From a virus: DNA of 20,662 nucleotides. Positions 397 to 20,505 of the stretch are shown piece by piece (position 1 is the first letter of the stretch; every line of letters starts with the position of its first letter). Below the pieces are notes generated by a model. That model was not told the origin of the DNA, made no database searches, and saw nothing but the letters and a program-made list of their open reading frames with translations. The DNA lies in IMG/VR virus record IMGVR_UViG_3300031620_000001, positions 1 through 20,662 of that record; one strand, 5' to 3'. The translations under genes were made by a program, and so were the position numbers.

Positions 397-1479
397 ATGT
401 CCGTACATAAACTGAAAGACGGCCGGTGGATCGTTCAATACAGGGCCGGCGCCAAATATAAGCGGGAATACTTTGGCCGGGGCCTGGAGGCAGAGACCAA
501 AGCCAGGGCCAGAAATGATGAGCTTGCGCCGAGGCCGTATAAAAAACGCACACAACCAAAAAAATCTCCTCTCTTCGAGGACCTGGCCAATGCCTATCTC
601 ATAGCGAACCGTGCCACCATAGAAGATTCCACCAGAAAAATCCTTCAATATAAACTATCAAGCACCATTCTTCCGGAGCTCGGCGCTCTCTATGCCTCAC
701 GAATAACGCATTACAGAATGGATCAGTATGTTGCCAAACGCCTGGATGCCGGCAGAAAAAAAAGCACCATTCACCGGGAAATTACAGACATTCAGACTAT
801 CCTCAATTGGGCTGCCGGTCCTGATCGTCGCTATATAGAAAAAAATCCTTTAGCAGGCTATAAGAAGCCGTCCCTGGACGATGAAATAATCCAGCCCGTT
901 ACGCACGCCGAAATTACCAGGATCCTCACACACGCCGTAGAACATCTGATTAAGGCATTAATAATCAGTTATTACACGGGCCTCCGTCCGGGAAAAGAAC
1001 TGTTCACTCTGAGATGGACAGATATGGATTGGGATCAAGAAATGATCCTGATCCGGTCCGCCAGAAAGAAGGGGACCCCGTTCCGATTCGTGCCGGTGCA
1101 CCGTGATTTTTTAGATCACCTGAAGACATGGTATAAAACTGATGGCCAGGAGGATGTGCATATTATTCGATACAACGGGAAACCGATTAAATCGATAAGG
1201 AGGAGCTTTGCCGCAGCAAAAAAAAAGGCGGGAATAACCAGAAGGCTCAGGCCGTATGATTTCAGGCATGCATTCGCTACCTGGGTACTCGGTGAAGGTG
1301 CGGACCTGAAATCCACCTCTGAGATCCTTGGCCATAGCAGTACAAAGATCACGACCAGGGTTTATCAACATACAAACATGGCCATGCGAAGAGAGGTGAT
1401 TAATAAACTCCCGGTCCTGGAAATACCAAAAGAGAAAAGAAAGTTTCGGCAGCAAAATAAACGGATTAAAAAAGAATAA
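397..1479 (+). CDS. int: Tyrosine-recombinase phage integrase
   Basis: A 360-residue site-specific recombinase for phage integration and excision. The catalytic set of the tyrosine recombinase family is visible in order: Arg197 in TGLRPG, the beta-hairpin Lys at 224/225 (ARKKGTPFR), the box RPYDFRHAFATW with Arg290, His313 in LGHSSTKITT, and nucleophile Tyr323 in RVYQHT. Tyr287 stands where many members have His in HxxR, a common substitution in phage integrases. Residues 1-50 look like an N-terminal arm-binding domain (KDGRWIVQYR), and residues 57-150 form the SAM-like core-binding domain. The basic tail (KRKFRQQNKRIKKE) may add DNA contacts. The start is 4 bases after the upstream stop, with only a weak, distant GAGG, so translation is probably coupled. 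The tRNA-derived att core lies about 0.9 kb downstream. Confidence 0.95.
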   Translation: MSVHKLKDGRWIVQYRAGAKYKREYFGRGLEAETKARARNDELAPRPYKKRTQPKKSPLFEDLANAYLIANRATIEDSTRKILQYKLSSTILPELGALYASRITHYRMDQYVAKRLDAGRKKSTIHREITDIQTILNWAAGPDRRYIEKNPLAGYKKPSLDDEIIQPVTHAEITRILTHAVEHLIKALIISYYTGLRPGKELFTLRWTDMDWDQEMILIRSARKKGTPFRFVPVHRDFLDHLKTWYKTDGQEDVHIIRYNGKPIKSIRRSFAAAKKKAGITRRLRPYDFRHAFATWVLGEGADLKSTSEILGHSSTKITTRVYQHTNMAMRREVINKLPVLEIPKEKRKFRQQNKRIKKE

Positions 1480-1501: not shown

Positions 1502-1533
1502 TTCAGCGGATCACAAAAAACGTGTCCGCTGAA
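1502..1533. repeat. Inverted repeat / stem-loop after the integrase gene
   Basis: TTCAGCGGA (1502-1510) is perfectly repeated in inverse as TCCGCTGAA (1525-1533). An inner CAC/GTG pair (1512-1514 and 1522-1524) extends the stem around an A-rich loop, with one bulged T. No T tract follows, so it is not a clear intrinsic terminator. It could be a weak terminator, a regulatory hairpin, or an arm-type or excisionase binding site near the attachment site. Confidence 0.5.
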
Positions 1534-1582
1534 TCGCGGTGTTAGAAAACCTGATTAATATTTATTAGTTACAGGCATCTAT

Positions 1583-2113
1583 ATGAGCATCGTTATTTGC
1601 ACAGTTTATAACAACAGCCGCTTGTTCTTTGGATCAGATACAAGAGCGATTAAAAATAATATAGTCAATGACGATTTTAAGAAAATCTTTAACATTAGAC
1701 CCGATATCTACTCAGGAATGACAGGAGAAGCTGAACCGGGATTTTGGTACATCGATCGAATAAAACAACTCAATCACCTCGATACTATTTCTCTGCTTAA
1801 TTGGATAGAGTTAGATTTTCCTACTCACAATTTCCCAAAATTGGCAATAATTTTGGCAGGAAAAGATGAACAAGGTAATTTCTTTATTTACTCACAAAAC
1901 CATGAGGGGTTGATATCCAGACCTTTTGTTCCCCAAGAAGGCTTAGCATTTGCGGTTAGTGCTAATGCCAATATCTCACTTTTTGGAGAATATCTTGAAA
2001 GGTGTTTTAGGAATGAAATTGCAATAGAGCAGGCGATACAAAACACTATATCTTATGCTTCTACTATCGACTCCTCAATATCAGATAAATGTGATTTAGT
2101 AATATTAGATTAA
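1583..2113 (+). CDS. Proteasome-fold (Ntn-hydrolase-like, HslV/beta-subunit-like) protein, phage cargo gene
   Basis: A 176-residue protein that aligns by eye with proteasome beta subunits and HslV. The N-terminus MSIVICTVYNN matches the 'T-I-V' first strand. FFGSDTRA matches the 'L-A-A-D-T-R-A' segment carrying the Asp17 equivalent. DDFKKIF matches the region of the Lys33 equivalent, and YSGMTGEA matches the following 'G-x-x-G' strand. Later strands (LAIILAGKD, LAFAVSA) and a closing helix fit the four-layer fold. Ser2 would become the N-terminal residue after Met removal and is the only candidate nucleophile. The classical Thr is absent, and spacing to the Asp is one or two residues long, so activity is uncertain. 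The gene is visibly AT-richer than the structural genes and sits between int and the att core, a usual place for lysogenic cargo. The RBS is weak (CAGG). The fold is inferred with fair confidence; the biological role is unknown. Confidence 0.7.
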   Translation: MSIVICTVYNNSRLFFGSDTRAIKNNIVNDDFKKIFNIRPDIYSGMTGEAEPGFWYIDRIKQLNHLDTISLLNWIELDFPTHNFPKLAIILAGKDEQGNFFIYSQNHEGLISRPFVPQEGLAFAVSANANISLFGEYLERCFRNEIAIEQAIQNTISYASTIDSSISDKCDLVILD

Positions 2114-2140
2114 ATAATTTCTAACCAGCAAGTGGAGCTG

Positions 2141-2326
2141 ATGGCTTATTCCGTGGCGATTTTTACAATATATAGTCTCTTTTTTGCGCTTTTAAAAACT
2201 ATACCATATATTGAATTTTTTCCTGTTTCCGGAACTGCTGCAGAGGCCTCCGCAATAACAACATATAGTATGATCAAAGAAAAGTTCTCAATGACAATTT
2301 TATACCACAAGAGAAATGACTGGTAA
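2141..2326 (+). CDS. Possible small membrane protein (doubtful)
   Basis: A 61-residue frame starting at ATG 2141 has a GGAG four bases upstream; a GTG at 2132 would add three residues. The first 25 residues (AYSVAIFTIYSLFFALLK) would form one membrane helix, followed by a short polar tail. I recognise no family. It follows the proteasome-like gene by 27 bases on the same strand, so it could be cotranscribed. The region is AT-rich and an opposite-strand frame of similar size also exists, so this may not be a gene. If it is not, bases 2114-2513 hold only the palindrome, the tRNA half and the terminator described separately. Confidence 0.25.
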   Translation: MAYSVAIFTIYSLFFALLKTIPYIEFFPVSGTAAEASAITTYSMIKEKFSMTILYHKRNDW

Positions 2327-2343
2327 ATCATTTGATTTACCAG
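2320..2343. repeat. Perfect 11-bp palindrome upstream of the att core
   Basis: CTGGTAAATCA and its exact reverse complement TGATTTACCAG are separated by two bases. The palindrome lies about 50 bp from the tRNA-derived core. It has no T tract. It suits a protein-binding site (integrase arm, excisionase or host factor) or a transcript end hairpin for the cargo gene. Confidence 0.6.
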
Positions 2344-2390
2344 AATAGCAATCTTTAAATCCACATCAGATAAGGCTCTAAATCCAAACC

Positions 2391-2437
2391 ATACCTTGAC
2401 ACGGTAGAGGTCACGGGTTCAAATCCCGTCGTGCCTA
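2391..2437 (+). tRNA. 3' half of tRNA-Val(GAC), probable attP core
   Basis: Bases 2391-2437 fold as the 3' part of a tRNA. They give an anticodon stem-loop with stem 2391-2395/2403-2407 and loop TTGACAC (anticodon GAC, valine), a five-base variable loop AGGTC, and a perfect T arm ACGGG-TTCAAAT-CCCGT (2413-2429). The acceptor 3' strand CGTGCCT and discriminator A2437 follow. No CCA is encoded. The outermost anticodon-stem pair (A2391-G2407) does not match, and no D arm or 5' acceptor strand lies upstream, so the molecule is not a complete gene. Such 3' halves are the usual identity block by which integrases use tRNA genes as attB; integration restores the host tRNA. Homology seems to begin at about 2392, at the anticodon stem, a known crossover class. 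Confidence 0.8.
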
Positions 2438-2456
2438 TTCAATAAAATCAATAAGT

Positions 2457-2493
2457 TAGCCGCTTTTAATCTTAGCGGCTATTTTATTTTTTT
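2457..2493 (+). terminator. Intrinsic terminator after the tRNA half
   Basis: An 8-bp stem TAGCCGCT (2457-2464) / AGCGGCTA (2474-2481) with a 9-base loop is followed by TTTTATTTTTTT. On the plus strand it would end the tRNA or the cargo-gene transcript. On the minus strand the hairpin lies about 20 bases after the holin stop codon and is followed by a weaker T-rich stretch, so it may also end the late operon. Confidence 0.85.
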
Positions 2494-2513
2494 GGTAATG
2501 TATTACCAGAGAT

Positions 2514-3077
2514 TTACAACGGGAATGTAGCGCCATTATTTTGAAGGGCATTCTTCTGTTTGAGTTTATTCCTGCCCCACGCAGTGATCCCTAATATAGC
2601 GCCCGGGATGCCGAATAAGGTTGTGAAAGCCCCTATCAGGAGAGGGATCATTCCTATAGAATTGGAATCTTTCTCTACGATTGCCTTCCATGCGAGCATA
2701 CACACAAAAACGCATACAGCGCCAAATGCTGTGCCTGAGATAATCCCCCAGTATGGTCTCCAGAACCATTGAGGCCAGTGTTCGCTTTTCCCCTCTGCCT
2801 GCATGGTTTGATTGACAATGGCCATTTGCTGTGTAAATTCGCGTTCTTTGCCAAGCGCAAATTCATTGGCCTGTTCCTGGAATTTCAACTGTAGTTCCGG
2901 GCTTTGGTTAATAGCTTCGACTGCTTGCTGTGGATCCTGATACCCGGTTACAACCTTCGCGATATCAATAACTTTTTCTGCTGTGTCCTCGGCCTCCTTA
3001 TGCCCGATAATCCAGCCGACCAGCTTGGGGGCATATTGGGCCAGGCTCATGGCTAATGGTATTAATGGTAATGGCAT
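2514..3077 (-). CDS. Holin, 3TM gene-transfer-release type
   Basis: A 187-residue protein that would form membrane lesions for lysin release. Its layout matches the 'holin of 3TMs, for gene-transfer release' family: an N-terminal hydrophobic stretch (about 1-25), then the conserved AEKVIDIAKVVTGYQDPQQA segment (33-52). A Gln/Glu-rich helical linker and the aromatic WPQWFWRPYWG (101-111) precede two clear membrane helices at about 110-130 and 142-167. The tail is short and basic (GRNKLKQK). The start has a good RBS (AAAGGAG, about 9 bases upstream). It is the last gene of the late operon, 14 bases after the L,D-transpeptidase-like gene, forming a lysis pair. Confidence 0.85.
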   Translation of the reverse strand: MPLPLIPLAMSLAQYAPKLVGWIIGHKEAEDTAEKVIDIAKVVTGYQDPQQAVEAINQSPELQLKFQEQANEFALGKEREFTQQMAIVNQTMQAEGKSEHWPQWFWRPYWGIISGTAFGAVCVFVCMLAWKAIVEKDSNSIGMIPLLIGAFTTLFGIPGAILGITAWGRNKLKQKNALQNNGATFPL

Positions 3078-3091
3078 AATTATTTCTCCTT

Positions 3092-3691
3092 TTAAAAAGA
3101 AAAATCATTTTCCTCTAACAATGTATAAGTGAAATTATTCCCGAATTTCTTGCGTGCCCGTTCACATAGTGTCAAAAGAAATGCGAAATGATCCGGATCT
3201 TGGACAACTTGACAGCCGGCACTCCATTTTCCAACGGAGATAGATGGCCGATAGGCGTTCGCCCGGTGGATATTAATCGCATTGATTCCTGTTTCTTCTA
3301 ACATGCCCTTTGTATTAATTATGCTGTCTCTATTAGAATCTCGATATACCGTGATAGGTCCTTTTTGCTGCAAGGCCTTATATCCTCGGTGCTTTCCTAT
3401 CATGTAGGCGTTGCGATACTGGCCTTCTTTCATCACTGCCGTACCTCGAATATTAATCGGGTCCTCTCTATAAAAGATTCCTGGATCGGTTGTGGCAGGG
3501 AAGGCAAAGAAATTCCAAATCCCATCAAAGATATAAAATACTATAATCCAATCATTAAATGCATTGGCAGATATATCGCTGGTTCGGATACCAACAATAT
3601 TGAGATCATGGCCTTTGCTATTAGTAAAAATCTTATACCTTTTGGCATCCATTACAGCAATGATCGCCTCTATATCCGGTTTAAATGACAT
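3092..3691 (-). CDS. L,D-transpeptidase-like (YkuD-type) presumed lysis enzyme
   Basis: A 199-residue protein with no signal peptide or membrane segment. The key signature is His142 in INIHRAN, followed 15 residues on by SAGC (Ser157 to Cys160, within GKWSAGCQV). This resembles the H...(S/T)-x-G-C active site of L,D-transpeptidase/YkuD-fold enzymes, which act on peptidoglycan tetrapeptides through the Cys. The C-terminus ends in the pattern GNNFTYTLLEE, seen in related phage proteins. It overlaps neither neighbour, has an AGGAAAA RBS, and sits just before the holin gene. I therefore infer a peptidoglycan-targeting lysis role, with export depending on the holin. A role in wall remodelling or a virion wall enzyme is possible. 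There is no classical lysozyme or amidase gene in the window. Confidence 0.6.
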   Translation of the reverse strand: MSFKPDIEAIIAVMDAKRYKIFTNSKGHDLNIVGIRTSDISANAFNDWIIVFYIFDGIWNFFAFPATTDPGIFYREDPINIRGTAVMKEGQYRNAYMIGKHRGYKALQQKGPITVYRDSNRDSIINTKGMLEETGINAINIHRANAYRPSISVGKWSAGCQVVQDPDHFAFLLTLCERARKKFGNNFTYTLLEENDFSF

Positions 3692-5664: not shown

Positions 5665-5710
5665 AATACTCCTTTCTACCTGCATACGAGGGCAGGCGAG
5701 TTTTAAGGCA

Positions 5711-5765
5711 AACAAAAAGGGCAGCGAGATAAGTGGGTAAGCACTTACCTGCTGCCCTTTTGTTT
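5711..5765 (-). terminator. Strong stem-loop terminator between holin-like and spike genes
   Basis: A near-perfect long hairpin: AAACAAAAAGGGCAGC on one side and GCTGCCCTTTTGTTT on the other, with one bulge. An inner AAGTG/CACTT pair sits around GGTAAG. Read on the minus strand, the GC stem is followed by TTTTTGTTTG, so it should end or attenuate transcripts that have passed the holin-like gene, 47 bases before the spike start. The T run on the other side makes it potentially bidirectional. Confidence 0.85.
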
Positions 5766-5851
5766 CTTGCGCCGGCCTTGGTTTAGCTATAACTTCAGCC
5801 GGGCCCTAATTATTATTTATTATTTGCCGTCCTTCGACTTTGACCTGTCGA

Positions 5852-6088
5852 TCAGCCTTTCGGCAGAGAACCGTTTATCGAACCATTCTTTCTTTCTAAA
5901 TATTTCTGGGCTACTTTACCGCTGAAAAGACCTGTCATCAGAGCGGCGTCGCCCAACTCAAAAGAAAAAAGCTGGTTGTTTCTTATGCAGACGACAGCCC
6001 ATACAGCCATGATAGTGAGCACGCAGACAGCCCATATCAGCCGCATAGACGATTTGTTGCCATTATCGTCCTCGAATGCTTTTGTCAT
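5852..6088 (-). CDS. Small membrane protein, holin-like (gp17.5 position)
   Basis: A 78-residue protein with an excellent RBS (AGGAGGT). Residues 16-35 (RLIWAVCVLTIMAVWAVVCI) form a membrane helix. A second hydrophobic stretch, about 42-57 (FELGDAALMTGLFSGK), is followed by a basic tail (VAQKYLERK). The pattern of one or two helices ending in 'G-x-x-x-G-K-V-x-Q-K' is common in small phage membrane proteins next to tail-fibre genes. In T7 the holin gene 17.5 occupies exactly this place after gene 17. A second, better holin candidate lies at the operon end, so this could be a holin partner, an antiholin, or an unrelated membrane protein. Confidence 0.6.
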   Translation of the reverse strand: MTKAFEDDNGNKSSMRLIWAVCVLTIMAVWAVVCIRNNQLFSFELGDAALMTGLFSGKVAQKYLERKNGSINGSLPKG

Positions 6089-6105
6089 TTTTTACCTCCT
6101 ATATT

Positions 6106-6867
6106 TTAATACCAAATAGATCCGTCCCAAATGAATGTACCGAGTTGGCCCGGGGCGATATTCTGGGCAGACACGGCGGAATCGAACGTTATGATCTCTT
6201 CCCCTTTATTGACAATTTCGATCTTGAATCCGCTCGGAAAACTCCCGGACGGATTGAAATTCCTGTTTGCGCCTCCGGGATCCAGGAAACATCTTAGATG
6301 ATTGCCCCCAGGATATGTGAAGGTCTCGTTCTCTGTCATTGTCTTGCCATAGCAATTAGGCACATCGCCGAAATCACCGCTTGCTATATTCTCCAGGCCT
6401 TTCAAATCCGCTTTCCATCGGAGATATTGTCCTGCTACGGGACTCGGAAGGGTAAGGTCTTTAAACTCAGAGGTAATTTTCAGGAAAAGTGTCCTGTTCA
6501 ATTTTTCCAAAAGTTGCTGCGCGATCATCATGAGTCTATCAAGCTGTTTTTCGTGCGTTTCAGCGGGGAAAGCATCGCCCTCAAGATAATCCGCGCCTTG
6601 AACGAGATCTAATTGCCGTATGATGGTTAAAGTGTAGCCAGAGGCATAGGCATCTTCATCCAAGGTGGTTATCGAGCCTCCCGTTTCCCACGGTTCCTCG
6701 CTTACGCTGTAATCGGTATTCTGGACCAGAATGGTTTCCGTGTTGTTCGGATCTTTCAAAATGACAACGAGATTTTCTTCTTCAAGGATCTTGAAGTTGA
6801 AGGGAAATTCCTTCTGAGATCCATTGCAATTGTAAGTAATCCTATTTGTTGTTGATGATATGGTCAT
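6106..6867 (-). CDS. T7 gp17 N-terminal-domain tail-fibre/adaptor protein (paralogue 2)
   Basis: A 253-residue protein. Residues 1-130 match the N-terminal attachment domain of T7 tail fibres: MTISSTTNRITYNCNGSQ, then KEFPFNFKI, a TDYSV strand, GGSITT, and the hallmark FPAETHEKQLDRLMM helix (100-113) with the following coiled segment. That domain docks the fibre to the tail. It is a clear paralogue of the next gene upstream over about 160 residues (same MT-x-SSTTNRI start and FPAETHE motif). The C-terminus is different and short (GDVPNCYGKT to FIWDGSIWY), a beta-rich end module. It lacks a long shaft, so it is more likely an adaptor or short fibre. RBS AGGAAAA is rather far (about 14 bases), but the paralogue fixes the start. 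Confidence 0.85.
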   Translation of the reverse strand: MTISSTTNRITYNCNGSQKEFPFNFKILEEENLVVILKDPNNTETILVQNTDYSVSEEPWETGGSITTLDEDAYASGYTLTIIRQLDLVQGADYLEGDAFPAETHEKQLDRLMMIAQQLLEKLNRTLFLKITSEFKDLTLPSPVAGQYLRWKADLKGLENIASGDFGDVPNCYGKTMTENETFTYPGGNHLRCFLDPGGANRNFNPSGSFPSGFKIEIVNKGEEIITFDSAVSAQNIAPGQLGTFIWDGSIWY

Positions 6868-6905
6868 GAGGTTTTTTTATTTTCCTGTCATATTAGAAAC
6901 TATTA

Positions 6906-7856
6906 TTAAATTACATACCAAATTGTTATCCAACCTCGGTTGTAAGAAGTTGCATCAAAATCAATATGGTCAAATATACCGTTAACTCTCCTAAACAATT
7001 GAACATAAGTCTGGTTGATATAAAATCCTCCGTCATTTGGATTAACTTGATCGTTATAATCTAAGGGATAATAATCGTTACCATCATCATCTCTAATGAG
7101 AATAGAGATTTGTCGTATCTTATCTCGTGTTAAACCATGGCCTATTTGAACATTTACAGTAATGTCCATGTTCCAATCCCCAATCTCGATAACTTTCTGG
7201 TTGAGAGAAAGAATAGGGACTCCAAGTGTAGCTCTTGCTGTAGCTGCATCCTCATCATCCAATAGTGTCTTAATGAAAGTAGTTACACCCAAAGTCGTCA
7301 GGGCAGCCGAAGCATTCTCATCATCGAGCAGAGTCTTTATATAATCGGTGACGGAGAGGTCCCCATGGCTCTTGAGCTCTACGTTCTTTATCCCGCTGAG
7401 ATCGTCTTTCCATGCAAGGAGTTTGCTGGCCACCGGGTCAGGCAAGCTCAGATCGAAATAGCTGGAGCTTTTCGCAAGAATGAGCATTCGGCCCAATTTT
7501 TCGATAATTTCTTGAATCAGCATCACGCCCCGGTCCAGCCCTTCTTCATGTGTTTCAGCAGGAAAGGAATCATTTTCCACGTAATCCACATCCTGGGTCG
7601 GCGGCATTTCCCTGATTATCACAAGCGTATTTTCCTCCGCATACGCCTTGACAGTGGTGACGGTCCCACCGGTCGGCCAGAGGCCCGCGCTCACGGTGTA
7701 ATCCGTTGTCAATGTCAATGTGGTTTCCTTTCCCTCGGAATCACATAGAATCACGATAAGGTCCGTTTTGGCGAAAATCTTGAAATTGAACGGAAACTCC
7801 TTTTGCCATCCATTGCAACTATAGGAAATCCTATTGGTTGTTGATGATACAGTCAT
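6906..7856 (-). CDS. T7 gp17 N-terminal-domain tail-fibre protein (paralogue 1)
   Basis: A 316-residue tail-fibre protein. Residues 1-130 form the T7 fibre attachment domain (TVSSTTNRISY, KEFPFNFKI, FPAETHEEGLDRGVML). A short DLSLPDPVASKLLAW segment follows. Next come two 20-residue linker repeats, (Y/F)IKTLLDDE-x-A-TLGV (172-191 and 194-213), typical of phage fibre shafts. A beta-rich C-terminal domain of about 100 residues (LNQKVIEIGDW to ITIWYVI) may trimerise or bind. The ATG overlaps the stop codon of the 76-residue gene (ATGA) and GGAG lies 9 bases upstream, so translation is coupled. Its role is to bind the tail and probably a host receptor or a further fibre. The beta-helix spike encoded downstream could be a partner. 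Confidence 0.88.
   Translation of the reverse strand: MTVSSTTNRISYSCNGWQKEFPFNFKIFAKTDLIVILCDSEGKETTLTLTTDYTVSAGLWPTGGTVTTVKAYAEENTLVIIREMPPTQDVDYVENDSFPAETHEEGLDRGVMLIQEIIEKLGRMLILAKSSSYFDLSLPDPVASKLLAWKDDLSGIKNVELKSHGDLSVTDYIKTLLDDENASAALTTLGVTTFIKTLLDDEDAATARATLGVPILSLNQKVIEIGDWNMDITVNVQIGHGLTRDKIRQISILIRDDDGNDYYPLDYNDQVNPNDGGFYINQTYVQLFRRVNGIFDHIDFDATSYNRGWITIWYVI
7218..7343 (-). repeat. Two-unit tandem repeat inside tail fibre
   Basis: Two copies of a 20-codon unit with a 66-base period encode YIKTLLDDENASAALTTLGV and FIKTLLDDEDAATARATLGV. Such units lengthen fibre shafts and vary in number between related phages. Confidence 0.75.
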
Positions 7857-8083
7857 GATTTTATCTCCATACTATTGTTTTTTATTTCATCCGGAGGCTC
7901 TATCGTAGGTTTGATTTTTTGGGCCTTCATGATATCCCATATATGACTTTCCAATCGTATCCCCTGGGCTACGATAAGTTCAAATTCCTTGCGACCGACC
8001 TTATTCCTCAATCTTACCTCAAAGGAGGCTATCCAGGCGCCAACGATGGGAATTACAATTAATTCTTTCATAAATCCGTTCAT
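7853..8083 (-). CDS. Small phage protein with N-terminal membrane-like segment, unknown function
   Basis: A 76-residue protein. Residues 6-21 (KELIVIPIVGAWIASF) form a short hydrophobic segment. An amphipathic charged helix follows (EVRLRNKVGRKEFELIVAQ), then WDIMKAQKIK and an acidic end. Its ATG overlaps the stop of the giant ejection-protein gene (ATGA), and its own stop overlaps the fibre start (ATGA), so it is part of a tightly coupled block. I recognise no family. The position between the gp16-slot and gp17-slot genes suggests a virion-assembly or membrane-associated accessory. Confidence 0.7.
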   Translation of the reverse strand: MNGFMKELIVIPIVGAWIASFEVRLRNKVGRKEFELIVAQGIRLESHIWDIMKAQKIKPTIEPPDEIKNNSMEIKS

Positions 8084-11000
8084 TTTTCTTTGGCCATTTT
8101 CTTTACTTGCTCAACGATGTCATTCCCGCCCCTGGCCATATCGATCATCTGATAATAAATCAGATCGATAAGCTGCCGTTTTTCATCTGGGGAGATCTCG
8201 GGATTTTCATAAATAAAAGAGATTGTCTTTTGAGCATTTGAGAGTCCCTTATAGATCCCTGTCAATCTGATAGCGACTTGCTCCGCGTTCTCTTCCAGAA
8301 TGCCGATAGCCTCTTCATACTTTAACTCTTTCTTGCTCAGGGTCTTGATCGTTGCAATGATCTGCTCGATATCCTGGTAATTGTCATAGAACTTCTTGAT
8401 GCTCTCGGCCTGGCCGGACGGATGCCGGACAGCGAATCCCTTTATTAAAGGAATATCGGCCCACGTGCGGGCCGGTTTGATTGTCTCAGGTACTATGCCC
8501 GTTCTACGTAGTGCCTCGTCAGCTACTTTCAGGATATGAATACCCAGGCCTCCGGACCATCCCCTGATGAGATTTTCTATCCGGGCAGGAGAGATAAAAG
8601 GGCTTTTTTCCAGGGCAGGCAATTCGCCGAGCGTCCTTCCTATAAGCTTCGCTACTTCCGTTGTATATGGCTTATACTGGTATTCAGGGAGCACCTTTTC
8701 TCTGGCTGCGGGTACTATAGGCCTGTCAAGGAAAAGGCTTCTATTCGCCCAATTCTCCATCCATGGGATCGCTACTGTGGGGATCATGCCGGGAGAGGCG
8801 CCCCGGACTATTGCCTGAATGGTTCCGTCGAAGGCATGGGGATCCTGATCAAGAATGTATTCGGTGATTCTTTCAGGGACGGTGCCGAAAAGAATACCAA
8901 GTTCAAAGGGTTTGGGAATTCTCCAGATATGATTTTCGGTCATGACGATCCAGAAAAGATCCTTTTGCCATTGCGGTATTTCCTTCCAGCGCTCATCCTG
9001 CCGATTGACAATGGTAAGAATGACTGAGGGCAAGGTTATTCCAGCCGCTACCTTGGCCGTGGTCATTGCAGGTTGCTCTATGAAGGTCCGCCTCATCTTA
9101 TCTATACCCTGCACATTGGCATTCCAAAAGGCGATAAGGATATTGACCGCCCTTGTTTTCGCGCCTACCCTGGCAAAATCCAGGGTCACTTCCCGACTGG
9201 CATACGCGGCCTCGAGCATTCCTGTCTTAGTGACTCCTTCTTTCTTTATTCCTTTCTTGAATTCGCCTAACCTGGTCCCTGCCTCCATAATCTCGCTCAG
9301 GATCCTGAGTGCCTCGATAGGATTCTTAATGATGTTTCGCACCGGAGTTTTTTGAAGTACCTGGCCGAGGTTCTTTTGCAGATATTTCCGGTCCATGGAT
9401 ACCAGCATCGACCGCAGGCCTCCCCCTTTTTTCCATTGCCAGTAAGCCTCATCTTTCTTGGCCAGGGAAAATACGCCTTTGGCCAGGTCATAGCCGGGAG
9501 CAAAGTTATACTTGGAATAGGCAAAGGCTGAAAACTGATCACGAAAGGGGTTTCGTGCGATAAACTCAGGGGTAAGGGTAGCACCGGCCCTCAGCCAGCT
9601 TGCAGGCATACCCAGGATTCGTATCAAAAGATTGACACTTTCCCGGTCCAGGGCAAGCATGGTTTTGGCCACGTCGGGATGCACCTGGTAAAGGGTTCTT
9701 TTCCCGGCTCTCCAGACAGCGATTACATTATCTTTGGGCATAAAGGCAGAGGGACGAAAGATCTCAGCCACGCCCTCGGGAAGATCCAGGCCAAATTCTT
9801 TTGTAGTTTCTATGACTGCGACTTTCTCAATCGTCCTTTCTATGATCTTACTTTTCGCTTCTGAAGTCTTTGCCCCTTTCAAACGCTCGATGATCTGGCT
9901 GGTCTCGCCCTTGGAAAACCCTCTGGTTGTGAGAGCTTCACGAACCCTCTCTTCTACTTTATCAAGGGGTTTTAATTCTTCCCCTTCACCGATCTTTACC
10001 TTTTCCTCTATCTCACGCTTCAGTTCCTTGTATTTAGATGTTTCTACCCATTTGCCGTATTTTTGCAGGAGGCCCCACAGCTCCGGCTCCCTGATCTTGA
10101 TTACTTGCTTAGGCTCGGGAATTCGCTCAACATATTTTCCCATCCCCTCGGTACTCTCAGCTAAGTTTACTAAGGCCCTTCCAACTGCGTTCTTCTCAGC
10201 CAGGTTGATGTAGAGATAGGTATTCTTGATGATCGATTCGAGGGGATCCTGAATATCTCTCCATGAGCCCTTGATCCGTTTTATCGGTTGCCGCGCCTGC
10301 AGGCCGACACCGGTTCCTCTGCTTCTGTCCGTTTCCATAACCCGGTAAAAAGGCACGTAATCACGGTTCAGTTGCTTCATTTTAATGGCGGTCTTTGTGC
10401 TGACCAGGCCGCTATCGACCAGATAGGCAAGCGTAGCATCCTGGTATTTGATGAGATCCTTGAAGATCTCTCCATAGACAGGGTCATATTTATTGACAAC
10501 AAATTCAGCGTCCTCGATCAAAACACCGGTTTCAATGCCTCGCTTGTGGAGCTCTATGGCCCTCTTGGAAACGATAAAGGCGCGAAACTCGTCCAGATTA
10601 TCTTTGACAGGCTCAAGGATTGCCCTCAACGGCTTGCCGACGTTCTCATAGGTCTTGAATAAATAAGGGCTATGCTCCAGGAAATGTTCTGCCCTGCCAT
10701 GCCAGCCGCGCATAAGCCGGACCAGCTTGTAGGGATCTTTCTCAGCGGAGATCTTCTCGCCCTTGGTCATTGCTTCGACAACCCGCTTGAGGAAATGGAG
10801 ATCGTCTACCGCAGCGGTATAGAGATCCGGCCAGCTGGGGAGTCTTTTTTCCCTGGCACCGACGGAGACCTGCGAAAGCACACGCATCTCTGCCGGTTGC
10901 TTGATCCATTTCTCAAACTCTTTCCGGGTTTCAAGCAGAATCTCCTTTGCTTCCGGGGATTTCTCGCCGAGCATGGCTTCAAACGCCTTATAGAATTCGG

Positions 11001-14000
11001 GTGCCTTTTCCAGGGCCTGCTTCTCATTCGTGACGTAAAGCCTGATAAACTCCGCGAATCCTTCAGGGAGTTTTGCCTGTCCGCCCCGGGGTTTTGTGGC
11101 TATGGCCAGGAGTTCTTTTCTCCAGGGCTCAAGGGGTTTTGAGGAAAGACCTTGCCGTGTAATTGCCTGCGGCCAGAGAAACTTTTGAAGACCATGGCCG
11201 GCCTCATGGCAGATAGTCTCAATGTCATTGGCAAACTTGGTGCGGACTACTTCTTCTTTGAGCTTGAAGATGCCGAGATATCGCCTGCCGGCTCCCCAAA
11301 AGCGCCCGGTCCTGATAGGCACATCCAGCTTTTCCTTGAGAAAATTGACAATATCGGATCGCCTGATCGGTTTTTCGATCTCACCAGGGGGTTCCGGCTT
11401 GCGCCTGAATCCTTTCTCGGGGGCAAAGGCCATTGGCGCGGTATCGGTTGATAAAAAGCCATACCCTTCGGCCTCTGCTTTTAAAGGTGGCTCATCATAG
11501 AGGGGACCTTTTGTTTCTTCCAAGGGTTTGAAAGGCATTAGGCCTGCAACTGGCTTTTGATCTTTATACGCAACTAACATCCCATCCTCGGGATTGACTT
11601 TATATTCAGCGTCAGGAAAACGATTTCGGACAACATTGAATTTATCTTGCATATAGGCGGTGTACTTGTCTCCGCACTTAAAAATCACACCGGAACTATA
11701 AATATCGCTCAATCGAGCAACCGGTTCTTTAGATACAACATAATCAAGGGCTTCAATATCGGTGGAATAGTAATATAAACGTTCAGTTGCTATGGTGCGA
11801 TCATAGTCCATTTGTTTGAATACATCCTTTGGATCGAATTCGGGAAATTCAGTGAATTTTTTGTTTTTTGGTAGTTCCCCTTTGATGAGAATATTACCAT
11901 CAGAAAACCAACCAGGAGCATTTTCAAGTTTTATTAATTCTTCAATATGCTCTCGTTTTGCCGCTACCGGAGATGGTTTCGCCGGCGCTTTTCGCAGGGC
12001 GGGCGTGAGAACTATCTTCTCTTTCTCAGGCGTCTTTTGAATCCTCCGCCTGAATTCTTTCAAAGCGTCTTTCCATGGTGCGATCCTTGCCGTAGCCCCA
12101 TCAATCTTAAATTTGATCCATTCTATTTCTGTTGCTTCCTCCGGTACCTTCTTGATCGCCTCATCGATCTCTTTCAGGAGTCCTGCTTTATCGCTCAGGA
12201 TCGCGCCTGGCTTGCCGGTAATTTTCGGTTCCGGTTTTTTAGGCACTTTCTCTACCTTCTCCACTGGCTTGTCGAGCATCACGATCCGGCTTTTTACTCC
12301 GGTCTGCCGGAAGGATTCAGCGCCTTTAAAGGCCCCTTCCAGCTCGTAAGTCGTTCCCTTTCTTTCCTCGAACCATTTCCTGAATGCCTCTGATTTCTTA
12401 TCCGTTTTAAAGAAAGGCCCCTCGCTCATGACGGAGATCAGTCTGCCTCCCGGATTCAAATGCTCGTAAGCATGATAGACATGATCGACATCCTGGCCCT
12501 TTTCAAACGGGGGATTCTGTACGATCCGGTCATATTTGCCTTCATGCTTCAAGAAATCGTCACCGATCACCTTGAATTTTTTGAGGTTCAGGAGTTTCCG
12601 GAGAGAATAATTCCACTCGAGTACGGACAGAGGAGCTTCAGGATGAGCGCCACGGATCACCTCGGCAAGATTCCCCATGCCGGCGGAGGGCTCCAAGACC
12701 GTGCTTTGGGGTTCTATTCCTGCCAGGTCCACCATCATTTTTCCGACCGGCTCGGGTGTAGGGAAAAATCCGGGAATTTTCCTACCGATAAATTCAGCCT
12801 CTTTTGCCTTGAGTGCCTTTTCTCTCAAAACTTCCTCGGAAGGACCTTTGATAAATGCCTGAATATCGGCCTGGGCTTGTTTCAATTCCTCCAGTTTGTT
12901 TATATTGGCTGATTTGAGCCGTTTTGCCTGTGTAGCGATCCAATCATTGAGCGCATTGATATCAGGGTAGACGTTACCCCGAAAATCTATCAATGTCTCG
13001 ATTTGCGCCTTGTTGGTAACTCCTTTGAGACTTTCCGGCAAGGTTCTGTTTTCAATCGCATCGGCAATGCCGTTCATGACGTTCTGGGTCTGTTCTAATC
13101 GATCCGCATCAGCGGCCATGCTCTCGGCAATCCGGGCACGTCGGGCCGTTAGGGCTTGCTTTGAAATCGCCGGTTCTCTTTTCTCCTTGATTTGGCTTGT
13201 CAGCTTCTCAGCGGCCTCACGGAATTTGCCTATAAGTTTTTGGTCCTCGGGTGAGACTTTCAGTTCCGGGGCAGGTTCTTCAATCGGAGGTTTTAGTTCT
13301 ATCTTCGGTTTCTCAGGTATTTCAATCTTTGCCGGTTCCGGTTTTTTATATTTATCCGGGAATTCCTTAACCTCCTCTACCCCTTTAGGAGTAAATTTCA
13401 CAATTTTAATCTCATCACCTACTTTCATCTCATAGGTGTCTTTACCTATATCAAACCTTCTTTTAAGTTTTGGTTTTTCTGGAGCTTTATATTTATCCGG
13501 GACGTCCTTATTATCACTGAACAAATCTTCCTTGATCGAAGGATCTTCCTTGATATCCTCGATTACCTCAGCGGGTTTCTTCCCTGATCGCCAGTAAATA
13601 TTTCTGAGCTTCCCGGCGATATGGGTACTAAAGCGCATTCCACCGATCAGAATAGCTCCGTCAATGAATTCCCGGGGCTCCGGGATCTGTCCCTCGAGCG
13701 CATCCCCCACTGTAACCATTGTCACCACTTCAGCGGGTACTCTCCCGAGTCCCGGCACTCTTACGCCTACGGCTCCGGTGGCCATGCCTATGATCTCAGC
13801 TTTGGCCGTTTCCCAAACAGCATCGGTAAGCCTCTTCCAGAATTCGGAAAAGGAATGGATCTCTCCCTTCTCGTATTTATCCATAAGAACCTTGCGGAGT
13901 CCTGCAGGCAGGGCGAATACTCCCCCTACTGCGGTCACCGGTCCTCCCCCTGCGCCGATGAGGCCTCCCATGGTCATAAAGGGCAGATCCCCGAGCAAGG

Positions 14001-14544
14001 TCGATCCCTGCATGAGAATCCGCTGCGCCGGCGTCATATATTTTTCCGCGCTTTCGGGCAGGGGTTCCGGTACTTTGCCCGTTGCAAGCAGTCCTGTGAC
14101 CGATGCCTTGAATCCCTTGCTGATAACCTCTTCTGTTGTGGGCTCGAATTCATAGGGCCGTCTGCCTGTCTTTTCTGCGGCTTCGACTGCCAAGGTTGCC
14201 CGTGCCCGTTTTTCTTCCCATGCAGGCTCAAAGATCCTTACAAACTTCTGGATCCAGGAAGGCTCTTTTTCCGGATAAATTCCCGGTTCCTTTCTTTTCG
14301 GTTTTTCGCTTTCTTTGAGTTCTTCAGGCGGTTCCTCTTTTTCAGGTAAATACTCAAGTTCTAACTGGAAGATATTGGTGAGCTCATCGGTTAAAGCTTT
14401 CCGGTCAAAGGACTTGATTCCGAAATACTCATCGATCTCTTTACCACTGAAACCGGCTTCGGAAAGCAGACTCCTCTTTTTCTGCATCCAGGCGTTGATT
14501 TCAATGTCGTTAAATTCGGCTTCTTTAAGTTGTTCGATGTTCAT
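8080..14544 (-). CDS. Giant polyvalent internal virion/ejection protein with methyltransferase and HEAGH zincin-like domains
   Basis: A 2154-residue protein in the T7 gene 16 position, probably packaged in the head and injected. I chose ATG 14544 (AGGAAG 11 bases upstream) over a TTG 12 codons earlier. Visible parts: a Pro/Lys/Glu-rich N-terminal half, with a Gly/Ala-rich hydrophobic region near 185-260. A class I adenine-methyltransferase-like domain spans about 585-760, with motif I LEPSAGMG (617-624) and motif IV QNPPF (676-680). A beta-rich stretch (about 915-1010) precedes a zincin-like HEAGH (1113-1117) with downstream EGFAEF as a possible third ligand. Long helical regions follow, and near 1665-1700 a segment ARNPFRDQFSAFAYSKYNFAP resembles large-polyvalent-protein-associated domains (LPD38-like). 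No transglycosylase motif like that of T7 gp16 is seen. Anti-restriction or host takeover after entry is inferred from known polyvalent proteins. Confidence 0.82.
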   Translation of the reverse strand: MNIEQLKEAEFNDIEINAWMQKKRSLLSEAGFSGKEIDEYFGIKSFDRKALTDELTNIFQLELEYLPEKEEPPEELKESEKPKRKEPGIYPEKEPSWIQKFVRIFEPAWEEKRARATLAVEAAEKTGRRPYEFEPTTEEVISKGFKASVTGLLATGKVPEPLPESAEKYMTPAQRILMQGSTLLGDLPFMTMGGLIGAGGGPVTAVGGVFALPAGLRKVLMDKYEKGEIHSFSEFWKRLTDAVWETAKAEIIGMATGAVGVRVPGLGRVPAEVVTMVTVGDALEGQIPEPREFIDGAILIGGMRFSTHIAGKLRNIYWRSGKKPAEVIEDIKEDPSIKEDLFSDNKDVPDKYKAPEKPKLKRRFDIGKDTYEMKVGDEIKIVKFTPKGVEEVKEFPDKYKKPEPAKIEIPEKPKIELKPPIEEPAPELKVSPEDQKLIGKFREAAEKLTSQIKEKREPAISKQALTARRARIAESMAADADRLEQTQNVMNGIADAIENRTLPESLKGVTNKAQIETLIDFRGNVYPDINALNDWIATQAKRLKSANINKLEELKQAQADIQAFIKGPSEEVLREKALKAKEAEFIGRKIPGFFPTPEPVGKMMVDLAGIEPQSTVLEPSAGMGNLAEVIRGAHPEAPLSVLEWNYSLRKLLNLKKFKVIGDDFLKHEGKYDRIVQNPPFEKGQDVDHVYHAYEHLNPGGRLISVMSEGPFFKTDKKSEAFRKWFEERKGTTYELEGAFKGAESFRQTGVKSRIVMLDKPVEKVEKVPKKPEPKITGKPGAILSDKAGLLKEIDEAIKKVPEEATEIEWIKFKIDGATARIAPWKDALKEFRRRIQKTPEKEKIVLTPALRKAPAKPSPVAAKREHIEELIKLENAPGWFSDGNILIKGELPKNKKFTEFPEFDPKDVFKQMDYDRTIATERLYYYSTDIEALDYVVSKEPVARLSDIYSSGVIFKCGDKYTAYMQDKFNVVRNRFPDAEYKVNPEDGMLVAYKDQKPVAGLMPFKPLEETKGPLYDEPPLKAEAEGYGFLSTDTAPMAFAPEKGFRRKPEPPGEIEKPIRRSDIVNFLKEKLDVPIRTGRFWGAGRRYLGIFKLKEEVVRTKFANDIETICHEAGHGLQKFLWPQAITRQGLSSKPLEPWRKELLAIATKPRGGQAKLPEGFAEFIRLYVTNEKQALEKAPEFYKAFEAMLGEKSPEAKEILLETRKEFEKWIKQPAEMRVLSQVSVGAREKRLPSWPDLYTAAVDDLHFLKRVVEAMTKGEKISAEKDPYKLVRLMRGWHGRAEHFLEHSPYLFKTYENVGKPLRAILEPVKDNLDEFRAFIVSKRAIELHKRGIETGVLIEDAEFVVNKYDPVYGEIFKDLIKYQDATLAYLVDSGLVSTKTAIKMKQLNRDYVPFYRVMETDRSRGTGVGLQARQPIKRIKGSWRDIQDPLESIIKNTYLYINLAEKNAVGRALVNLAESTEGMGKYVERIPEPKQVIKIREPELWGLLQKYGKWVETSKYKELKREIEEKVKIGEGEELKPLDKVEERVREALTTRGFSKGETSQIIERLKGAKTSEAKSKIIERTIEKVAVIETTKEFGLDLPEGVAEIFRPSAFMPKDNVIAVWRAGKRTLYQVHPDVAKTMLALDRESVNLLIRILGMPASWLRAGATLTPEFIARNPFRDQFSAFAYSKYNFAPGYDLAKGVFSLAKKDEAYWQWKKGGGLRSMLVSMDRKYLQKNLGQVLQKTPVRNIIKNPIEALRILSEIMEAGTRLGEFKKGIKKEGVTKTGMLEAAYASREVTLDFARVGAKTRAVNILIAFWNANVQGIDKMRRTFIEQPAMTTAKVAAGITLPSVILTIVNRQDERWKEIPQWQKDLFWIVMTENHIWRIPKPFELGILFGTVPERITEYILDQDPHAFDGTIQAIVRGASPGMIPTVAIPWMENWANRSLFLDRPIVPAAREKVLPEYQYKPYTTEVAKLIGRTLGELPALEKSPFISPARIENLIRGWSGGLGIHILKVADEALRRTGIVPETIKPARTWADIPLIKGFAVRHPSGQAESIKKFYDNYQDIEQIIATIKTLSKKELKYEEAIGILEENAEQVAIRLTGIYKGLSNAQKTISFIYENPEISPDEKRQLIDLIYYQMIDMARGGNDIVEQVKKMAKEK

Positions 14545-14563
14545 AAAAAAATTGACTTCCTGT

Positions 14564-14580
14564 TTGATAAAAAGTATCAA
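14564..14580 (-). other. Leader hairpin before the giant ejection-protein gene
   Basis: TTGATA-CTTTT-TATCAA forms a 6-bp hairpin on the minus strand, 3 bases upstream of the AGGAAG ribosome binding site, in a 155-base leader (14545-14699) that has no convincing gene. It may mark an RNA processing site or tune translation of the giant protein. Confidence 0.4.
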
Positions 14581-14699
14581 AATTTTATGGGTCTATTGGT
14601 TTACAAGATTTGTCTCTATATCTCCGGGATCTTTTTCATCCTTCTTTTGGTCTTCCTGATTTATTATCATTTTTTTTATAAGCCGGATGATAAAGACCT

Positions 14700-16181
14700 T
14701 CATCTTTGACCGGTGCGCTTTAAATACTCCTCGATAGTCTCCCCCTTCTTGCGTTTTGGTATTTCGCCCTCGATCTTCTCCGGTTTAGTTTTTTCCCTGA
14801 TTTTATCCGCTGTTTCTCTCAGCCGGGTGATAGGCTTTTTGAGGTACGGTGCAAGGACTTTATCGACAACATACTCCGGTGTACCGGGAGTCAGCATATT
14901 AAGCCGTTTCGTCCGATCTTTTTCATCTTCAAGTCTCTCTCTGAGGGCATGTTCAAAGAGATAGGCGTCCCTGATCTCCCCTGCGTCAAAGCCGGTGAAG
15001 AGGTTGCCCTTGATAACCATGTTAGATCCGGTTGTTGTAGCCAGATCCATGAGCTCCGCTTCATGCTGATCTGCCTTATCTTTCCGTTTTTGAATAACCG
15101 CCCTGATGTGTTCGGCATCCTTGGCACTGAGGCCTTTGCCGATATAGCTTATGGGAACATTTAAGCCGATTTCGCCTGCATAGCCTTGTTTCAGCATGGT
15201 CATATAGAATTCCGGATCTGATTTGCCTATTGTATCTTCTTTGGCCTTGAGCTTTGCCTTCTTTTGTGTATCAACTAAGCCTATCCAGTGTTCTTTTCTT
15301 CCGGTGGTCAACGGAGAGAGCATAATATCCTGAAACTTCAGTTTTCCTTCATGCAGCTTGACAAGGGCTTCGTTTTGCCAGGTCTCGGTGATCGCCTCTT
15401 CTTTCTCTTTTTCCCCTGCCAATCGTTCTGTTTCCTCCCTGTTGAGTGCCGTGCCCATGGAGTTTTTATCAGCCGATGGTAGTTTCGATTCATTAATAAA
15501 CTTTACTGCCTCTTCAAATCCAATGGTTCGCAATCGGTTTAATGCTTCAGTCCATAGCATTGTTTTTTCGCGTTTGACCTTGATTTCTTCGGAATCGGCA
15601 CTAAACTTTTCTATCAGCCTTTTTGCTTCTTCCGACTTGATGTAGCCAGCTACCTGAGCCCCGGCCGTATGGATCTGGAAAGTATTGACGATTTCGCGTT
15701 GCTGGTTCTCGTCAGCTTGATTCAGTAATCGCCGTAGGGTCATTTCGTTATTGAAATAATCGGATCTGCCCTGGTCGATGAGCTTTTTCCGGTAAAGGCC
15801 TTTGACTTTAATTTCTGATTGAACGGCAGTTCGCTTGATATAAGGCTCTAATCTTCGCCAGACTTCGCTATCGGTAGTGGATTTCTGGTATTCGCCATGC
15901 AGGTCCTCAAAGAATTTTTTATGCTCCGGTACAAAGGCCTCAAAATCATTCCTGGTCTCCAGACCGGCGACAAATTCCGCGTTTTTCTGCATGACCTCAA
16001 TCTCGGCATTGGACAGCTCCGTAAATTGACGTGCCTGCTGCATCTTTTCAGCGACAAGGCCCAGGATTCTGCCGGTTTGCGTCAATCCGGCGCCGATAAT
16101 CTCGGGGACCTGAGCGCCTTTGGAGATCGGAGCCCTTGGCAAGCTCACCGGTTTTGTTTGATATGTGGGAATTCGTGGCAT
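14700..16181 (-). CDS. Internal virion (core) protein, T7 gp15 position
   Basis: A 493-residue, almost wholly helical and highly charged protein. The N-terminus (MPRIPTYQTKPVSLPRAPIS) is a short polar arm. Then comes IIGAGLTQTGRILGLVAEKMQQARQFTELSNAE, the kind of opening seen in internal core proteins of T7-like phages. The rest has long Glu/Lys heptad-like stretches (for example AEHIRAVIQKRKDKADQHEAELMD and the Lys/Glu-rich C-terminus ending GETIEEYLKRTGQR), suggesting a coiled or multimeric core. No enzyme motif is seen. It lies between the gp14-like gene (14 bases upstream) and the gp16-slot giant gene, with GGAG 8 bases before ATG. The function as part of the ejected core/DNA conduit is inferred from position. 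Confidence 0.7.
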   Translation of the reverse strand: MPRIPTYQTKPVSLPRAPISKGAQVPEIIGAGLTQTGRILGLVAEKMQQARQFTELSNAEIEVMQKNAEFVAGLETRNDFEAFVPEHKKFFEDLHGEYQKSTTDSEVWRRLEPYIKRTAVQSEIKVKGLYRKKLIDQGRSDYFNNEMTLRRLLNQADENQQREIVNTFQIHTAGAQVAGYIKSEEAKRLIEKFSADSEEIKVKREKTMLWTEALNRLRTIGFEEAVKFINESKLPSADKNSMGTALNREETERLAGEKEKEEAITETWQNEALVKLHEGKLKFQDIMLSPLTTGRKEHWIGLVDTQKKAKLKAKEDTIGKSDPEFYMTMLKQGYAGEIGLNVPISYIGKGLSAKDAEHIRAVIQKRKDKADQHEAELMDLATTTGSNMVIKGNLFTGFDAGEIRDAYLFEHALRERLEDEKDRTKRLNMLTPGTPEYVVDKVLAPYLKKPITRLRETADKIREKTKPEKIEGEIPKRKKGETIEEYLKRTGQR

Positions 16182-16195
16182 TTTTCTACTCCAGG

Positions 16196-16627
16196 TTATC
16201 CTTTCCTGAACTTCCCAAGGTTGTATCCCATGTATCCCGCTTCAGCACCGCCGGTCAGTAAGCTCGTTCCAGCCTTCCACATGCCGGCCCTCTTTGCTTC
16301 CTTGCCTTTTATCCGATACCTTTCAGCTTCGATTTGGGAGCCGTACCGGGCCAGGCTTATATCGCGCTCTATGTCCCTGGCAGTTTGGTCCATGACCTCC
16401 AGCGGGGTCCCTTTCAGTTGCACACCGGCGGCAGCATACGCCGCCCTCTGGCTGGAGAGGATCTGCAGTTTTTGCTTTTTCATTTTTTCTTCGCGTATCT
16501 GCGATTCATACCGGGAAATAGCTGCGTTGTAATCGGCCCATTTTTTTTGCGTTTGAGCCGTCTGATAGTGGCCGTAGGCTGTCATTGCGGTGCCGCCTAT
16601 CATCATGGCGAGAATTAACCATTCCAT
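16196..16627 (-). CDS. Internal virion protein, T7 gp14-like (core protein B)
   Basis: A 143-residue protein. An N-terminal hydrophobic segment (LILAMMIGGTAMTAYGHYQTA) is followed by a helical basic/Gln-rich part, YESQIREEKMKKQKLQILSSQRAAYAAAGVQLKGTPLEVM. The phrase 'R-A-A-Y-A-A-A-G-V-x-L-x-G-T-P' is highly typical of gp14-type core proteins of podoviruses. The C-terminal Gly-rich segment (AGTSLLTGGAEAGYMGY) may insert in membranes during DNA ejection. The RBS is AAGGAGT. Order after gp12-like and before gp15-slot matches T7 exactly. Confidence 0.85.
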   Translation of the reverse strand: MEWLILAMMIGGTAMTAYGHYQTAQTQKKWADYNAAISRYESQIREEKMKKQKLQILSSQRAAYAAAGVQLKGTPLEVMDQTARDIERDISLARYGSQIEAERYRIKGKEAKRAGMWKAGTSLLTGGAEAGYMGYNLGKFRKG

Positions 16628-16654
16628 ATTTTACTCCTTATGGATTATGAATTT

Positions 16655-16707
16655 AGGAATTGAGGGATTTAGGAATTCGCAATTCCTCAATTCGAAATTC
16701 CTCAATT
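16655..16707. repeat. Cluster of AATTCCTCAATT/AGGAATTGAGG palindromic repeats
   Basis: In the 88-base gap between the gp12-like and gp14-like genes, AGGAATTGAGG (16655-16665) faces two direct copies of AATTCCTCAATT (16681-16692 and 16696-16707, 3 bases apart). The central AGGAATT-CGC-AATTCCT (16671-16687) is a perfect palindrome. The sequence can fold into alternative hairpins on either strand. On the minus strand it would sit in the mRNA just upstream of the gp14-like gene's own partner order. It looks like a small dispersed palindromic repeat, not a terminator. Confidence 0.7.
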
Positions 16708-16715
16708 TTTTCCTT

Positions 16716-19205: not shown

Positions 19206-19208
19206 ACC

Positions 19209-19769
19209 TTACCTCCCTGCTGCCTGCCAATCGGTTTCGTGCGTATCTTCCGGTGGATTGCCCTCGATCGCATTCAGCCGGTAGGCCTGTTTGATCTGGA
19301 TAAGATATTCCTTTAAAATCAGATTTTTGAGTGTCTTGCTGTCAGCCAGCCTAATAGAAAGCTCCGCGGCCAGCTTGAGGGCAAGGCAAATCAGGAAAGC
19401 CGGATTGAACTTATTAGGGTCCGTGATCCGGGCAATGTATTTCAGATAGACAACATCCTCGTTGATGAGGAGCCTGTCACCCTCGATCACGTAATTGGCC
19501 GTGCTGTTGTAGAGCTCCCTGTCACGCAGGTAATCAGTGGGGAGCTGGTATTGATAGACGTATTCAAAATCGGGAACCTCGCTAAGCTGGGCCAGGCTCT
19601 TCCTTTTCATGGCGAAATTCCAATAGTGGGAATGAAGCAAGAGATCCCTTTCCGGCTCATAGAGCAATTTGCAGGTCCGGGCCTGCTTGGAATTCTCATT
19701 TAGATCGGTAATCAGCGTGTCCCCGATTCTGGACAGGGCTATATTGCAAATTTCAACATTCGAGCTCAT
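19209..19769 (-). CDS. Tail tubular protein A / head-tail adaptor (T7 gp11-like)
   Basis: A 186-residue protein of the gp11 tail-tubular A family, of usual length. The features are SNVEICNIALSRIGDTLIT at the start, LNENSKQARTCKLLYEPERDLLLHSHYWNFAMKR (about 23-57) and YQYQLPTDYLRD. A late helical segment (ALKLAAELSIRLADSKTLKN) packs the adaptor ring. It joins the portal to the nozzle. The RBS is AAGGTGA; the stop is 3 bases before the nozzle gene's GTG, so the two are coupled. Confidence 0.9.
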   Translation of the reverse strand: MSSNVEICNIALSRIGDTLITDLNENSKQARTCKLLYEPERDLLLHSHYWNFAMKRKSLAQLSEVPDFEYVYQYQLPTDYLRDRELYNSTANYVIEGDRLLINEDVVYLKYIARITDPNKFNPAFLICLALKLAAELSIRLADSKTLKNLILKEYLIQIKQAYRLNAIEGNPPEDTHETDWQAAGR

Positions 19770-19777
19770 GATTCACC

Positions 19778-20023: not shown

Positions 20024-20039
20024 GATATTCCTCCCTCGA

Positions 20040-20059
20040 GGGGAGCCCGGAGGCCCCCC
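20040..20059 (-). other. GC-rich stem-loop between cement and small-protein genes
   Basis: GGGGAGCC (20040-20047) and GGCCCCCC (20052-20059) pair with one mismatch around a CGGA loop. No T run follows on either strand. On the minus strand it lies in the late mRNA just downstream of the cement gene, so it may stabilise the mRNA end or be a processing site. Confidence 0.6.
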
Positions 20060-20080
20060 TTCTATGTTATGAATCTTCGG

Positions 20081-20485: not shown

Positions 20486-20505
20486 GATAAAATCTCCTCT
20501 ATTGA

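Follow-up and report, generated by a model that had tools for sequence, protein, structure and literature searches.

The window analyzed here, a linear phage fragment of 20,662 bases that makes up one whole IMG/VR record, carries between its integrase gene and its attP site an open reading frame for a 176-amino-acid protein. On balance, this protein is probably a very divergent, minimal proteasome-like Ntn hydrolase that uses Ser2 as its nucleophile and is carried as lysogenic cargo by a temperate, podovirus-like phage from sediment. Its membership in the proteasome-like superfamily appears very likely from profile and alignment evidence, and, given that membership, we consider it likely that catalysis is active. 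Phage-borne solitary proteasome homologues are already known; the protein described here is a divergent addition to them, represented by one orphan sequence rather than a demonstrated family.

The reading frame (positions 1583 to 2113, plus strand) is intact from ATG to TAA, exactly as the initial annotation had it, and its length alone makes a chance origin very unlikely, as a stop-free run this long has a probability of approximately 2e-6 at the local base composition. Codon usage gives moderate support for the reading frame, with the antisense frame scoring similarly. A weak ribosome-binding site, AGG (1573 to 1575, plus strand), can be read directly 7 nt 5′ of the ATG. The gene had been called AT-rich, and this is borne out by a GC content of 34.8% (31% at third positions), compared with 47 to 49% in the integrase, holin, tail, and internal protein genes; its base composition is foreign-looking. 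The interval between the integrase gene and the reading frame contains an imperfect palindrome, TTCAGCGGA...TCCGCTGAA (1502 to 1533, plus strand), which occurs once in the window. The RNA fold of the segment containing it (1478 to 1585) has a predicted energy of -28.6 kcal/mol and a z-score of -4.1, and the palindrome is possibly a terminator or a regulatory site. Downstream of the reading frame, a possible 61-amino-acid protein with a hydrophobic N terminus (2141 to 2326, plus strand) follows the sequence GTGGAG; we rejected it as a partner gene because its coding status is doubtful, with a better score in another frame. It is followed by a terminator-like, perfect 10-bp palindrome, CTGGTAAATC-ATTT-GATTTACCAG (2320 to 2343).

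The resemblance to HslV and proteasome beta subunits that the initial annotation pointed out proved to be above chance. A scan of the 176-amino-acid protein against the whole Pfam library returned a single family, PF00227 (Proteasome), with an E value of 0.0013 and 18.8 bits, under the curated cutoff of 22.4 bits. All four sequence matches in the PDB were to proteasome beta-7 (E values of 1.2 to 1.7), in a register that keeps the G-x-D-T-R-A motif and the lysine. We also scored the protein with two profiles from which the window was left out. The first, composed of HslV, phage HslV-like proteins, and human beta-7 (PSMB7, a sequence entered by hand and partly taken from the PDB match alignment), gave 20.8 bits (p = 1.6e-8; hhalign P = 2.9e-5). 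When this profile was run on 2,255 open reading frames, HslV, phage proteins, and one proteasome-like homologue from the host phylum ranked highest, followed by the reading frame at 1583 to 2113 with 20.7 bits; the best open reading frame that is not proteasome-like scored 6.3 bits. The second profile, composed of 17 proteasome-like proteins from the host phylum, gave 16.4 bits (p = 4e-7) and an hhalign probability of 91%, with residues 1 to 152 aligned. This profile is not fully independent because its collection partly used a seed containing the window, which introduces a mild circularity. It ranked the reading frame 21st, after 18 homologues, one adjoining open reading frame, and one HslV, and ahead of the other HslV sequences. 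Based on these comparisons, the protein is best described as very divergent, with a family assignment that is distant though well supported.

Searches for closer relatives returned none. With tblastn, the protein had no match among 50,697 phage records even at an E value of 10, and nothing was found in plasmids at an E value of 0.1. Viral and genome contigs scanned by pattern likewise yielded no homologue, and DNA motif scans for G-x-D-T-R-A followed by K-I gave three matches, all unrelated. The homologue searches covered about 500 genomes of the phylum in all: no close homologue was found in 395 host-phylum genomes, and the complete set of 85 host-order genomes gave four weak matches, one of which proved, when inspected, to be of the radical-SAM type. 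The protein matches the PHROG family phrog_36497 weakly, and this family was not found in 398 genomes from the phylum of an Erwinia. A search with PSMB7 gave no match in phages. AlphaFold prediction from the single sequence reached a pLDDT of 38 and a pTM of 0.29, and a Foldseek search with this low-confidence model returned nothing meaningful. The assignments of an Ntn-sandwich fold and of a working Ser2 nucleophile thus derive from remote sequence similarity and from the alignments, since no close homologue was found and the single-sequence structure prediction failed.

These alignments nevertheless place the residues expected of an active site. Met1, Asp19, Arg21, Lys34, and Gly48 are invariant relative to the three host-phylum homologues that score above the Pfam cutoff, in keeping with the earlier claim that the Asp and Lys equivalents are kept. 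Ser2 (codon at 1586 to 1588, plus strand), immediately after the initiator Met, falls in the Met-Ser/Thr column of the 17 proteasome-like proteins and is predicted to become the N-terminal nucleophile upon Met removal; less certainly, Asp163 may be a further active-site position. In the proteasome, the catalytic triad consists of Thr1, Lys33, and Asp17, with Lys33 as the general base (PMC4792962). The spacing between Ser2 and Lys34 is 32 residues, equal to that between Thr1 and Lys33, whereas the spacing between Ser2 and Asp19 is 17 residues compared with 16 in the proteasome, reflecting an S1-S2 hairpin longer by one residue. A Ser nucleophile is chemically plausible because the yeast proteasome in which Thr1 is replaced by Ser is active, albeit less efficient (PMC4792962). 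In the mechanism that we propose, Met1 would be cleaved off by a methionine aminopeptidase of the host, leaving Ser2 exposed as the N-terminal nucleophile, and Lys34 would serve as general base. Asp19, together with Arg21, would hold Lys34, Gly48 would form the oxyanion hole, and an amide bond would be cut or transferred without a dedicated ATPase. We infer Met removal and catalysis, as well as a role in lysogeny, from these features and from the position of the gene.

We considered whether the protein could instead have kept a proteasome-like fold and lost catalysis, acting by binding in a manner comparable to proteasome alpha subunits, for instance to inhibit a host protein, or the host HslUV, or to serve it as an adaptor. 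Consistent with such a loss, the C-terminal motifs are degenerate, with VSANAN in the usual place of Gly-Ser-Gly and SISDK in the usual place of Val-Gly-Gly. A target for a binding protein would also exist, as HslV is almost universal in the host order: a PF00227 protein is present in 72 of the 85 host-order genomes. On the other hand, Ser2, Asp19, Arg21, Lys34, and Gly48 all align, and their joint survival would be unlikely in so divergent a protein had catalysis been lost; in addition, Ser2 is not preceded by a blocking N-terminal extension. We therefore regard the loss of catalysis as improbable.

The genomic position of the reading frame argues for its role as cargo. The gene was said to lie in a slot beside an attachment site, and this is what we find, with a tyrosine integrase gene upstream (397 to 1479, plus strand; PF00589, E value of 5.2e-25; phrog_1 integrase, E value of 2e-50) and an attP core downstream (2392 to 2437, plus strand). 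The core corresponds to the 3′ part of tRNA-Val(GAC), its last 46 nt beginning with the anticodon stem, and is identical to tRNA-Val genes in genomes of the candidate host clade. The next segment (2438 to 2501, plus strand), which contains a hairpin and a T-rich tail, resembles the sequence downstream of a host tRNA-Val gene in genome G823, and the whole stretch from 2392 to 2501 is 84.5% identical to that genome. The 46-nt part is present, with at most 3 mismatches, in 8 of 198 genomes from the phylum of a Geobacteraceae metagenome-assembled genome (MAG). In the order to which the best match belongs, a 42-nt core is found exactly in 5 genomes and with one mismatch in 7 more. The loci examined with ARAGORN were tRNA-Val genes, one with anticodon TAC and the others with GAC. 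The integrase lies on the left of the core and the phage late genes on its right, beginning with a holin-like gene (2514 to 3077, minus strand; PF11351, E value of 1.1e-4 and 23.2 bits, just under the cutoff; phrog_3427 holin, E value of 2.3e-5). The 5′ half of the tRNA-Val gene is absent from the 20,662-nt window, as expected for attP. Because the late genes lie to the right, the simplest reading is that the core is attP rather than a phage-to-host junction with the phage on the left. The phage thus probably integrates into a bacterial tRNA-Val gene, with its candidate hosts in a single order of the Geobacteraceae phylum, and in a lysogen the cargo gene would be the last or next-to-last gene ahead of host DNA. 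Since attP is the 3′ part of tRNA-Val and lies beside the reading frame, it both supports the cargo reading and suggests a probable host clade. In genome G824, we observed a second exact tRNA-Val 3′ part (L082, near 10593) that is not surrounded by a tRNA gene and lies 625 kb from the intact one; the intact tRNA-Val gene has a different integrase just downstream, with 27% identity to the window integrase.

The window also encodes an endolysin-type protein, a spike-like protein, and podovirus-type tail proteins. Another of its products is a 2,166-amino-acid protein of the large internal or polyvalent type (8080 to 14580, minus strand), which by eye is similar to a 2,480-amino-acid protein in locus L086. 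Other metagenome samples contain sister phage contigs (L002 to L005 and L015) that match positions 5700 to 20662 and are either near-identical or 87 to 96% identical; none of them extends as far as the cargo gene. In contig L015, the spike protein differs and the endolysin appears amidase-like by eye, which indicates variation among the sisters in the genes for host recognition and lysis. Contig L004 contains a 76-bp, 89% match (932 to 1007) to the start of the spike region (5707 to 5781), which is out of order, and also matches the tail end of the window.

A temperate, podovirus-like phage would have acquired the hydrolase gene and carries it between integrase and attP. An accessory role serving the lysogen, rather than one in replication or in the virion, is most likely, as the gene would sit at the extreme edge of the integrated prophage, beside host DNA. 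Slots between integrase and attP often hold superinfection-exclusion or defence genes, and such a function, suggested by position, would be compatible with a proteasome-like hydrolase. However, the protein had no PADLOC match, no defence neighbour was recognised in the window, and nothing specific favours defence over host modification or phage regulation; we consider an anti-phage or superinfection-exclusion role quite unlikely. More speculatively, the proposed Ser hydrolase might represent a separate phage-borne lineage, distinct from the phage HslV-like proteins (PPH) and from HslV, of solitary hydrolases or ligases with which prophages in sediment bacteria from the phylum of Geobacteraceae would cleave or ligate a single, specific host protein in the lysogenic state. 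We offer this idea tentatively, as an outside chance.

Most proteasome-like proteins that are not part of the classical complexes have yet to be characterised. One of them, connectase, is a precise protein ligase. If borne out, a prophage cargo protein of 176 amino acids with a Ser nucleophile and no ATPase would offer a small model, easy to express, in which to study the function of solitary proteasome homologues and the reason phages retain them. Interest in it is limited by the evidence being one orphan sequence with a distant family assignment.

Such homologues have been described before, and the suggestion of an undescribed phage-borne family was accordingly too strong. Fuchs et al. (2021) reported 22 new families of proteasome homologues, including the phage-borne PPH and AAH, and could identify no co-occurring AAA+ ATPase for them (PMC8665760). 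The initial annotation had presented the protein as standing alone, without an HslU-like ATPase. This holds within the 20.7-kb fragment, in which hslU was not recognised among the genes identified; for the whole phage it does not follow, as the record is linear and probably an incomplete contig, and a partner gene may sit elsewhere in the phage. Nor is the lack of an ATPase a peculiarity of this protein, given that these homologues are generally found without an AAA+ partner.

PPH proteins, which occur in phages and their hosts and are often annotated as "peptidase HslV family," are the most obvious relatives to consider. Each is likewise a single small proteasome-like protein of tailed phages with no ATPase, of approximately 140 to 200 amino acids, and they are common: a PPH-like probe, written by hand as a consensus of such phage HslV-like sequences and used only to locate real records, matched 237 phage records. 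The 176-amino-acid protein could therefore be an ordinary member of this group that has drifted. Yet its pairwise z-scores with six phage proteins are 0.2 to 2.4, compared with 10 for PSMB7 and 2.7 to 7.1 for HslV. PPH proteins have Thr where it has Ser and a hairpin of another length, and the distance from nucleophile to Asp, read off the alignment, is approximately 12 residues in PPH but 17 here, which is that of the proteasome and HslV plus one. The failure of tblastn to recover any phage record points the same way. We rejected a drifted PPH as very improbable because the protein is too dissimilar to the phage HslV-like proteins. Slimmer still is the chance that an unrelated orphan protein fortuitously matches the motif G-S-D-T-R-A plus K-I, as a subthreshold Pfam score, the absence of close homologues, and the lack of a structure model might suggest, because two window-free profiles agree in register, one over nearly the full length, and the score gap to unrelated open reading frames is wide.

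The proteasome-like proteins of the host phylum provide a second comparison. These proteins (L117 to L135), approximately 200 to 330 amino acids long, several with insertions, are encoded in bacterial genomes, and our 17 were gathered from approximately 5% of the phylum's genomes together with the host order. They share with the phage protein a Met-Ser or Met-Thr start, an A/G-x-D-S/T-R motif, K-I/L-F, and a near-full-length alignment, but pairwise similarity is weak, with z-scores of at most 3.7. Eight of the 17 begin with Met-Ser, one of them via an inferred non-ATG start. The prediction of an N-terminal Ser2 in place of the classical Thr therefore stands by alignment, whereas the missing Thr, once seen as distinctive, does not set the protein apart. 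When five Met-Ser proteins were scanned singly, one passed the Pfam cutoff and four scored below the phage protein. Proteins of this type, many of them Met-Ser, occur in approximately 5% of genomes in the phylum of a Geobacteraceae MAG, and they are probably under-annotated, as several miss the Pfam cutoff. In locus L121, an open reading frame beside one homologue (2819 to 3559, minus strand) scored 18.7 bits with a proteasome-like profile, suggesting a tandem pair; in L120, an integrase-like open reading frame (2106 to 3143), integron-integrase-like by eye, adjoins another bacterial homologue. The group probably corresponds to PHD, PMI, and kindred families among those that Fuchs et al. place in group II, which also includes GPH, FC, and others; the phage protein itself may belong to one of the less common families of that study.

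By these comparisons, the protein is an outlier that resembles neither HslV nor PPH and does not clearly join the host-phylum group. Its likeness to HslV (ClpQ) is distant, and HslV has D-G-Q where it has D-T-R. Complete host HslV proteins match PF00227 with E values of 1e-21 to 1e-28; we rejected a captured host HslV because the protein is too dissimilar, its PF00227 score is far weaker, and the window has no recognised hslU. Relative to proteasome beta subunits, it has Ser instead of Thr, no propeptide, and the longer hairpin, its Ser-Gly and Gly-Gly motifs are degenerate, and no alpha subunit or ATPase is seen in the fragment. Even so, a beta subunit, PSMB7, is its best single match, aligning over most of the protein and having in common with it the D-T-R-A motif, the lysine spacing, and the oxyanion-hole Gly.
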